From contig NC_011683.1 in NCBI RefSeq assembly GCF_000150955.2, positions 310,001 to 374,000 on the forward strand: 64,000 nucleotides of DNA, read 5' to 3'. The translations under genes and the position numbers were made by a program. The notes beneath the pieces were generated by a model, which saw only the letters and a program-made list of their open reading frames with translations, had not been told where the DNA came from and did no database searches. Within the stretch, counting starts at the first letter, position 1. Every line of letters begins with the position of its first letter. The stretch is from Phaeodactylum tricornutum CCAP 1055/1. Its lineage: Eukaryota; Bacillariophyta; Bacillariophyceae; Surirellales; Neidiaceae. Below are positions 43,435 to 46,866 of the stretch, piece after piece.

Positions 43435-44832
43435 TTAGAGATCAACAATTCTTTTACCTCTTTTCGTCTTGTTTAAGATTGCAGAAACCTTTTGTAGTCT
43501 GCATCACCTTAAGAGAACATTCATGTCCTTTACAGTTAATCCATATTCTCTCCTTCGAAACATAGTTGTTGATGCCGCCTTTGTCACTCATTCTTGGCGA
43601 ACGCCTGCTGGTATTTTGAAGCTTGAGACGCAAGACATTGGCAAAATCTATGAAGTTGCTCGTGATTTGTTTCGTCCCTGCTATGGTGGTACGTAGCGAC
43701 GATCCATTGGTTTGCCATTGTGAACGCAAAGGCTGAAATGGCTATCCACGAAAATATTTGGACTTTTCCTTTGTGCCTAGCAAATGTGTGTTTTGCGAGG
43801 ATACTACAGATATTCCTGTCGTCTCACAAGCCATCCAATTGATTCCAACACTAATGTACGTGGAAACCAGACTTAACTATGATTTGCGTAAAATTAAGCA
43901 AGTATGCGTTAGATCAACTCTCTCATGGCGAAAATCTAGTGTCCGAAAGGCGATCTTGGCTTAGGCTTTTTTTACTTCCTATTTCTTTTGATCCTGTGTT
44001 CTCGGCTTACAGAAGGAGTTTGGCACGATTCATCATGTGGCTTTCCTTTCCATTCGGCGCGATGCAAGCCGGTCAGATCTGTTTCCTTACAACAAATATT
44101 TCCAGCCGATCGTCATCGAAACTATCGTCTTCGTCAGAGAATGAAATTTTAATTACGGGGATCTGAGGGGCTTGATACGAACCTCTCAAGTACTGGGTCG
44201 TCCTTATTTTACGACACCGAAAATTTATGGCTCACAATCTTGCTGTTTGAGAGCCATACATTTTCGCTGCCAAAGACAAAGTTACAATGCTCATCAAACA
44301 AAGGTCAACAAAGGACATCTGTTGTTGAAGGTACATTCTCAGTAGTCATAGGTAAAGAGGCGAAAATTTTGAGGGCGTTTTAGCAAGGCAACGAAGGATG
44401 ACCATTTTCTATCGGGACCACTATTTCATACACAATGAACGACGAAGAAGGGGATTGTGATACTGACGACCACCAGACTTTCTGTATCATGCTTCATAGG
44501 TAGCGCGCCGAAAGCAGTGCGTCTCTTTCTCACAAACTAGCTGCTCAGTGTCAATACCGTGTTCGTCGGTGCGCAAGCATTCCGGCGAATAAGAATGGCT
44601 AGTAACAAAATTTCGAGAAAGCAGGATGACGTTCATGAAAGCAAAGACGTTTGACCACCGACTATTATGTACATGCGTTGGACATTTAAAACCAAATGAT
44701 AGCTTCAGGTAGCGAACACAATTGTCACCAAGACGCAGTGGCTGTGCCGCTTTCGTATCAATCCCATACCAAATATATGGCAAACGATGTCATTCCAACT
44801 ATTCCAATCATTTGATTTCGAATCCAACAGCA
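43435..44832. other. Intergenic, includes the 3' region of the peroxiredoxin gene
   Basis: 1.4 kb without recognised genes. The right 300-400 bp (minus strand) is the expected location of the SECIS element of the peroxiredoxin. A hairpin with ATGA and TGAT at the base (44757-44793, minus strand) is visible but lacks the apical AA, so it is not called. Confidence 0.5.
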
Positions 44833-45702
44833 CTACTTGCTTTCTTCAATCGCCTTCAGCATCGAGTCGGCCAGCGTCGACGAAGGGTCTGAATCTCCCG
44901 CAGGGTCATCTTCGGTCTCCGAGATTCGAATCGCTTTGATCTCTCCGTTCACTGCGTAGATGGCGTGACGCTTGCAGCGACCAATAATTCCTTTGCTAAC
45001 GGGTCCCGGGTGCGTCAACTCCATATCGAGTGCTTTGGTCAACTCAGCTGCCGGATCTCCCATTAGCGTCAGCATACTCTAGAAAGAAAAGTGCAAAAGG
45101 AAGTATTAGACAAGACGAAGCTGAAGAGAGGCGAAGTCACAACATAACGCTTACCAAGCCGATCTTTTGATCTTTTGCCCAAGCCTGCATGACGGCTGGA
45201 CATTTGGAAAAATAGAAGTGAGTTAGTATGCGTCCGAGAAGAGCGCTCACGTCCGGCGCTGCTGTGGCTGCCTTCGCTCTTTCTTCCGCAACGCCTCGTC
45301 GGGCGAGCCATGGAAAATCGTCGTAGTCCTCGTAACTTCTTATACACACGAAAATATTTACCAAAGGTCCCAGAACGAAAACTCACCAGCATCGTTGACA
45401 CAGTAGACGATGACACCGTCAATCCCTGCCTTCCGAAGAGCGTCTTGATTCTCCAGATAGTTAGGGATTTGCTTTGTGGATCAGGTAGGCGTAAAGGCTC
45501 CTGGAAGACCCACCAACAGAATTGATTTGTTCTTTGCGTATTCCGCCAGATTGTGCTTCTTGGGAGGGAAGCCGTGGTGCAGTTCAACCGCAGGAAGCTT
45601 GTCGCCTACGCTCGCAAAACATCGAACTGACGCATTGCGAAGAAAGGAGTGCTTGGCCTTGACTACAAACACTCGAGCAGCACTATTTGAAAACATATTC
45701 AT
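44833..45702 (-). CDS. Selenocysteine-containing type II (Prx5-like) peroxiredoxin
   Basis: Exons are 45702-45387, 45195-45155 and 45078-44833, 603 coding bases including one in-frame TGA at 45483-45481, for 200 residues. The TGA replaces the peroxidatic Cys: LPGAFTPT-U-STKQIPNYLENQ; the family consensus is PGAFTPTC. The frame is open on both sides and resumes perfectly with GIDGVIVYCVNDA, AVMQAWAKDQKIGL and the C-terminal part ending STLADSMLKAIEESK. All splice sites are GT-AG. The start at 45702 gives a mitochondrial-type leader (MNMFSNSAARVFVVKAKHSF); an upstream ATG at 45855 is possible. The enzyme reduces peroxides via the selenol (Sec74). YCVNDA supplies a possible resolving Cys. A SECIS is required; none was proven. 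Confidence 0.85.
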
Positions 45703-46866
45703 GTTGCAGACTTCGTAAGTTTTTGCGCAAGGCGATTTCTCCGTCCACTTTACAGATGAAGCGGAAAGATGAAATGTGCGAACGACGTGCTTTGAAATGC
45801 GACGATAGCCTCCGGAAAGAAGACGAATACCATCCAGCGTTTTGAACAAAAGCATATTGCGAAGGAAGTAGAATTGCGAAATTCATAAACGATGGGAATA
45901 TAAAGAATGCCCGGTCAAGGAAATACCTATGCTTTTTCCGGGTTGTTCCTCTAGAACCGGTTCAAGAGTGTCGGATCCAGTCAATCTGGATAGATCCCGT
46001 AAGTGCGGAAAATCGCCGCAGTCCCTCTAGTAGAGTCGACAATCTCTCTACTAGCTCTAGCTAGAATCTCTGCTTTGTTCAATGTGAAGATTGGATTTTC
46101 CTTGACTGTGAATCGTTCCAAATGTCGTTTTCATTATCTGTTTTGTTAATCAGGTTTCAAAGATATACCACTTTCAGTTAAAGTCTTACTGTTCGAAATA
46201 GGGTACCAAGGAACGTGAAAGGCTCTCTCTAGAGAGAAGGAGGGTCTCGAACTTCCCTGGATGTGGAGAGCATTCGTGTCTCACTGTCAACTACATCGAT
46301 ACGCTGGATGGGTTACAATTAGGTTGTTTTCGATCCCGGGTCAGCCAAGTGTTGAGAGCATAGGTGTATTCCCTTATATAAGAGCAAGAAACAAAAACGG
46401 TATAGATAGTAGACCAGAAAAAAATCTTGTTCGTGAACGAAACGGATATGTGTTGATATGATAACGGAGGGTTGCGACTGCATTGCTTTTCCAAGATATA
46501 TTGCTCGGGAATTGATTTCGAATCTCTTAATGTCTCACGCTGGACAACCCACGTATATATCAATAGACCGGCTAGCGACGTTTCATGAATCCTGCTAATT
46601 TTTCGATTTATTGCCTCGCCGGCTTGTGTCCGGAAGTAGACTGAAAACTGGGTCAGCTATGCCCTAATTATGTGTGAGATGAGGCTGTTTTGTGAGAGGA
46701 ATAATGAAATAGAAAGAGTGAGTGAACTCGCGTGTGGGGGCAGAACAAAGCCACACACAGCAGAACCGGCAAAGGACATCCCGTTCCTCGGCAAGGCCTT
46801 CCGAAACGACTTCGAACTACGGAGCAAAGGTAATAACAAAGATCGCCGCTAGTTCCTGCTCCCACC
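45703..46866. other. Intergenic
   Basis: About 1.16 kb of promoter region between divergent genes, with short chance frames. A CTCTAGTAGAG / CTCTACTAG inverted element sits near 46025-46055. No gene was recognised. Confidence 0.45.

Follow-up and report, generated by a model that had tools for sequence, protein, structure and literature searches.

A TGA at a probable selenocysteine site in a peroxiredoxin gene

The window analysed here, a 64,000-nucleotide stretch of Phaeodactylum tricornutum DNA (C15:310001-374000; genome 27,450,724 bases, 88 contigs), carries on its minus strand a three-exon peroxiredoxin gene followed closely by a candidate SECIS element:

45703..45855 (-): possible N-terminal extension of 51 codons, in-frame ATG at 45855
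45387..45702 (-): exon 1, encoding an N-terminal presequence-like stretch and the active-site motif LPGAFTPT-U-S
45481..45483 (-): in-frame TGA in place of the peroxidatic Cys codon; residue 74 counting from the ATG at 45702
45196..45386 (-): intron 1, GT-AG, 191 nt, GTGAGT...CCAG
45155..45195 (-): exon 2, which joins to VNDAAVMQAWAKDQ (ten bacterial relatives: VNDAFVMQAWAKDQ or VNDPFVMQAWAKDQ)
45079..45154 (-): intron 2, GT-AG, 76 nt, GTAAGC...CTAG
44833..45078 (-): exon 3 including the TAG stop of the spliced reading frame
44746..44799 (-): SECIS candidate, starting 33 nt past the TAG stop, proposed from motif and short-stretch fold

A first-pass annotation had placed the gene at 44833-45702 and described three cleanly joining exons interrupted by a single in-frame TGA. 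The outer coordinates are correct, both junctions have regular GT-AG introns, and the TGA at 45483-45481 (minus), flanked by LPGAFTPT and STKQIPNYLENQ, is the sole internal stop in a spliced ORF of 603 nt (TAG included) that specifies a 200-residue product. Upstream of 45702 the frame stays open to the ATG at 45855, with the nearest in-frame stop beyond it at 45885, and the true start may lie at this earlier ATG, 51 codons away. The N-terminus of the peroxiredoxin looks like a mitochondrial presequence, which would suggest a mitochondrial location; the stretch encoded by 45703-45855 (minus) also resembles a targeting sequence.

The TGA could be absent from the mature message if it were spliced out, and a 42-nt GT-AG stretch surrounding it (GTGGGT...ACAAAG), a multiple of three in length, can indeed be read by eye. 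This stretch is shorter than either intron (191 and 76 nt), and its excision would remove VGLPGAFTPT-U-STK, which is strongly conserved among relatives; we regard such splicing as barely conceivable.

The TGA occupies the position of the peroxidatic cysteine

With Cys entered in place of the TGA, the product matched the Pfam family Redoxin over residues 32 to 173 (E 6.7e-21; 75.1 bits versus a curated cut-off of 26.6) and AhpC-TSA with E 1.8e-10. With X typed there instead, 27 distinct PDB sequences, mostly named peroxiredoxins, were matched at E up to 0.001 (best E 1.6e-21), and chains of the Prx5 type aligned across the TGA site. Three of these PDB alignments were viewed at the TGA column: two have Cys and one has Ser (1urm, presumably an engineered mutant). 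The product contains the active-site motif PGAFTP-x-[C/U]-S.

The first-pass annotation had claimed that the peroxidatic Cys of the Prx5/type II family falls at precisely this codon, and had proposed aligning the read-through protein with algal peroxiredoxins. A MAFFT alignment with L003 and L004, both paralogs from this genome, and ten bacterial loci (L070-L079) bears the claim out: the TGA column is Cys in all 12 relatives. Although the query that found the bacterial loci was typed with Cys, the TGA site lies outside all six search peptides. The alignment did not include a third paralog of this genome, L005, which reads GAFTPTCSST. A viral scan returned no relative.

A TGA in paralog L004 was considered as a Sec codon and rejected: it lies in an intron with GT-AG ends, and that paralog has PGAFTPGCS at its active site. 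A TGA flag by itself is therefore no evidence.

The conservation of this column also bears on two other fates of the stop codon, namely readthrough with insertion of another amino acid, or a functional short product of 73 residues. Nothing specific favours either. Cys alone is found at the TGA column in the 12 relatives, and 73 residues would be without most of a domain that spans residues 32 to 173; we consider these outcomes very improbable.

Counted by eye, the other Cys residues of the product are at 28, 101 and 154, and with none past residue 154 a C-terminal resolving Cys like that of human PRDX5 is absent. Such a residue is not needed in every type II peroxiredoxin. Cys101 lies 27 residues past the proposed Sec74. 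In L004 and the bacterial relatives, we take the Cys that precedes VND/TND to be the plant-type resolving residue; Cys101 lies two residues along from it and by its position is a candidate for that role.

Selenocysteine decoding and other selenoprotein genes

The genome plainly decodes Sec. Two tRNA-Sec loci score above the Rfam cut-off (L008 on C21 and L009 on C9), and ARAGORN types both as tRNA-Sec(tca). Genes of the SelD type (E 1.9e-70) and the SepSecS type (E 1.9e-75) were also found.

The arm sequences of the two tRNA-Sec(TCA) genes differ; to our knowledge a second, divergent tRNA-Sec in a single genome is unusual. A partial second SepSecS-like match with a TGA inside it lies at C5:914004-914586 (the first match in L083), at a distance of about 4.5 kb from the main SepSecS-type gene.

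Seven further genes have a TGA at what we take to be known Sec positions of their families, as read by eye:

GPx (two genes): VASK-U-GLTK and NTASK-U-GKTK
TXNRD: GGC-U-G
SelT: FCNG-U-G
SelM: SCGG-U-M, two copies, 98% alike
MsrA (L023): ACG-U-FW
SelU: U-YF-C, a UxxC motif adjoining an exon start

The SelM copies (L038 on C88 and L039 on C8) represent a duplicate or an unmerged allele, and motif and fold scans yielded a convincing SECIS for neither. In TXNRD (L027) a very stable hairpin directly follows UGA-GGA-TAA (MFE -49.9 for the first 100 nt) and could aid recoding of the UGA. Among the 42 matches listed for PF00085, none holds a TGA.

A candidate SECIS element shares its motif with other selenoprotein genes

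The candidate downstream of the peroxiredoxin gene has the layout GTTG-GAATGAC-33 nt-CGAA-AG-CGGC: a helix I of 4 bp (GTTG/CGGC), an internal loop formed by GAATGAC (44795-44789) and ACGAAAG (44756-44750), a helix II of 11 bp, and the apical loop ATTTG. Folded within its surrounding 74-nt stretch, the candidate has helix I, internal loop, helix II and apical loop in the minimum-energy structure (MFE -13.3). Elements with ATGA[CT] ... GA closing helix II are likewise present in GPx2, GPx1, MsrA, SelT, TXNRD and SelU, 40 to about 190 nt past the stop (that of MsrA picked by eye), and these genes guided the choice of the peroxiredoxin candidate.

We used motif and fold filters, all written after the peroxiredoxin candidate was known, to gauge how often such elements occur. 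A strict motif (GAATGA[CT], then 25-36 nt with at least 10 bp, then [TC]GAA) was matched four times among 576,032 strand-bases from this genome, in GPx1, GPx2, MsrA (L023) and the peroxiredoxin 3'UTR, and not once in 6,000,000 first-order Markov bases. The Sec codon of MsrA (GUFW) was noticed only after this match, and the MsrA and SelU matches were the only unforeseen ones in the motif scan. A looser motif was matched 28 times in the genome stretches and 135 times in Markov sequence. Normalised for length, its frequency in real DNA is about double, so the Markov model understates the background somewhat.

A fold-architecture filter (unconstrained fold, any of six stretch lengths) retained the peroxiredoxin 3'UTR, GPx2, TXNRD and SelU alone in 597,158 strand-bases, all four known beforehand and the TXNRD place counted in two overlapping loci, compared with one place in 3,000,000 Markov bases; it missed GPx1, MsrA, SelT and SelM. 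The strand-base totals count overlapping loci, as well as the loci that carry the Sec genes, and leave out L001, L002, L008, L009 and the bacterial L070-L079. Milder filters were less selective. The first let through 10 ATGA starts, that of the peroxiredoxin among them, when run over the window (128,000 strand-bases); the second let through 49 there (18 at -7.5 or better) and 114 across 373,344 strand-bases from other loci (66 at -7.5 or better).

Fold stability does not favour the candidate

The stability of the candidate depends on how much flanking sequence is folded with it. When the flanks are 10 or 14 nt long, the best fold keeps all 11 pairs of helix II (mean pair probability 0.59 and 0.66); with 20 or 25 nt it keeps 6 of them, and with 30, 40 or 60 nt none (probability 0.06-0.13). 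Likewise, none is present in six stretches of 90-300 nt taken from the stop (0.06-0.36). In the longer stretches a competing fold wins over helix II, and taking TGAT as an alternative 3' quartet gave no better picture. The six other elements have pair probabilities of at least 0.88 at most flank lengths, the exceptions being MsrA (0.69 at 10 nt), SelT (0.87 at 10 nt, 0.29 at 60 nt) and TXNRD (0.66 at 30 nt, 0.81 at 60 nt). The peroxiredoxin candidate is also the weakest fold, at -13.3 versus -17.3 to -29.3 in the others.

Summed over helices I and II, the energy of the candidate is -13.9; by this measure, starts scoring -14 or better occur in the window at 1.6 per kb, and two places in the peroxiredoxin 3'UTR itself score better. 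No unpaired AA was seen in the candidate, and a CC located 9 nt past the quartet is paired in the drawn fold. When a scan of this 3'UTR demanded an unpaired AA or CC together with a regular helix it gave no candidate, and the same scan gave none for TXNRD.

Early SECIS scans of the peroxiredoxin 3'UTR turned up no convincing element. Candidates at offsets of about 285, 525 and 757 were rejected as being without the ATGA found in the elements of the other Sec genes (those at 285 and 525 are the two with better summed energies), and those at about 336, 404 and 907 as having a weak helix II or lying far out. Further downstream of the gene, a strong hairpin of about 15 bp at ~44266-44218 (minus) has no TGA/GA loop and was likewise set aside as a SECIS.

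Rfam reported no SECIS in the window, nor around the gene at E up to 10. Genome-wide, no RF00031 match rose over the cut-off despite the plain selenoprotein genes described above, and Rfam is therefore insensitive in this genome. The first-pass annotation had proposed a SECIS search of 44400-44835: a motif-bearing candidate (44799-44746) does lie in that range, while its fold is not robust and Rfam does not match it. Motif and position thus favour the candidate, against the thermodynamics; either this element, with help from SBP2, or a different one may be the real SECIS.

Interpretation

The locus very probably holds a nuclear gene for a Prx5/type II peroxiredoxin whose peroxidatic residue is a selenocysteine specified by UGA. 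This is the best reading because the sole stop in 200 codons hits the residue where Sec is expected, because the genome is equipped for Sec decoding and carries no fewer than seven further Sec genes, and because Sec peroxiredoxins have been reported in a diatom (PMC2375036, consulted in part). The same three lines of evidence uphold the earlier suggestion that this is a likely Sec enzyme.

The principal competing account is a sequencing error or a recent nonsense mutation of Cys to TGA, leaving a Cys peroxiredoxin or a young pseudogene. TGT or TGC becomes TGA by a single base change, the codon is known from one assembly, and the SECIS candidate does not fold robustly, all of which this account would accommodate. 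It would have to reconcile these points with a gene that is otherwise intact and has regular introns, with a sole stop that sits on the one catalytic residue among 200, with the SECIS motif of other Sec genes just 3' of the stop, and with the two Sec peroxiredoxins reported for Thalassiosira pseudonana in the consulted part of PMC2375036. We judge it improbable.

If the UGA is decoded as Sec, SBP2 and eEFSec with Sec-tRNA(UCA) would be brought in by a 3'UTR SECIS hairpin, probably the candidate located 33 nt past the stop, and reading of the UGA as Sec would yield the complete enzyme of 200 residues, or a version with 51 more. The selenolate of Sec74 would then attack peroxide to give a selenenic acid. 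Cys101 could resolve this acid by forming a selenenylsulfide with it; glutathione or thioredoxin could do so instead.

The elements compared here also raise a more general idea. A loop of GAATGA[CT] versus [TC]GA is seen in the peroxiredoxin, GPx1, GPx2, MsrA and SelU, and the apical loops of the peroxiredoxin (ATTTG) and TXNRD (TATTT) are without the canonical AA. Tentatively, and with considerable doubt, we suggest that SECIS elements of this alga share this species-specific loop, some of them without an unpaired AA, and that standard searches under-count its selenoproteins. The MsrA element (loop CTTATT), with a CC 11 nt past the quartet, may instead be of the CC type.

Phaeodactylum tricornutum is a widely used model diatom, and the gene read with Sec would add one more Sec peroxidase to its redox system. 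Automatic annotation would cut or split such a gene at its catalytic residue, and the locus allows a test of which SECIS features such algae require.

Comparison with known systems

Sec peroxiredoxins were said by the first-pass annotation to be known from algae, and two sources, each consulted in part, agree: two peroxiredoxins are among the 16 selenoproteins of T. pseudonana and further ones occur in Ostreococcus (PMC2375036), and peroxiredoxin is among the most widely distributed Sec proteins of algae, diatoms having 20-44 selenoprotein genes each (PMC7539508). The words Phaeodactylum and tricornutum are absent from the main text of PMC7539508, and among the literature matches listed for Phaeodactylum and Sec peroxiredoxin no title or abstract opening was on this gene. 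The gene may well be catalogued already, and at most it is an additional Sec peroxiredoxin, such enzymes having been reported in a diatom and in other algae.

Compared with eukaryotic SECIS elements, the candidate has in common helix I, the ATGA/GA internal loop and helix II in short stretches; it differs in being without a clear unpaired AA and in having its CC at 9 nt, one short of the AA/CC spacing of 10-13 nt past the quartet used by SECISearch (PMC2375036, in the part consulted). With human PRDX5 and plant type II peroxiredoxins the product shares a Prx5-type sequence and the PGAFTP-C-S motif, those enzymes having Cys where Sec is proposed here; human PRDX5 has, in addition, a C-terminal resolving Cys that the diatom product does not. 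With the algal Sec peroxiredoxins, including those of T. pseudonana, the comparison is by description rather than by sequence (PMC2375036 and PMC7539508, in the parts consulted), and by that measure the likeness lies in a peroxiredoxin that would likewise carry Sec in a Sec-decoding alga.
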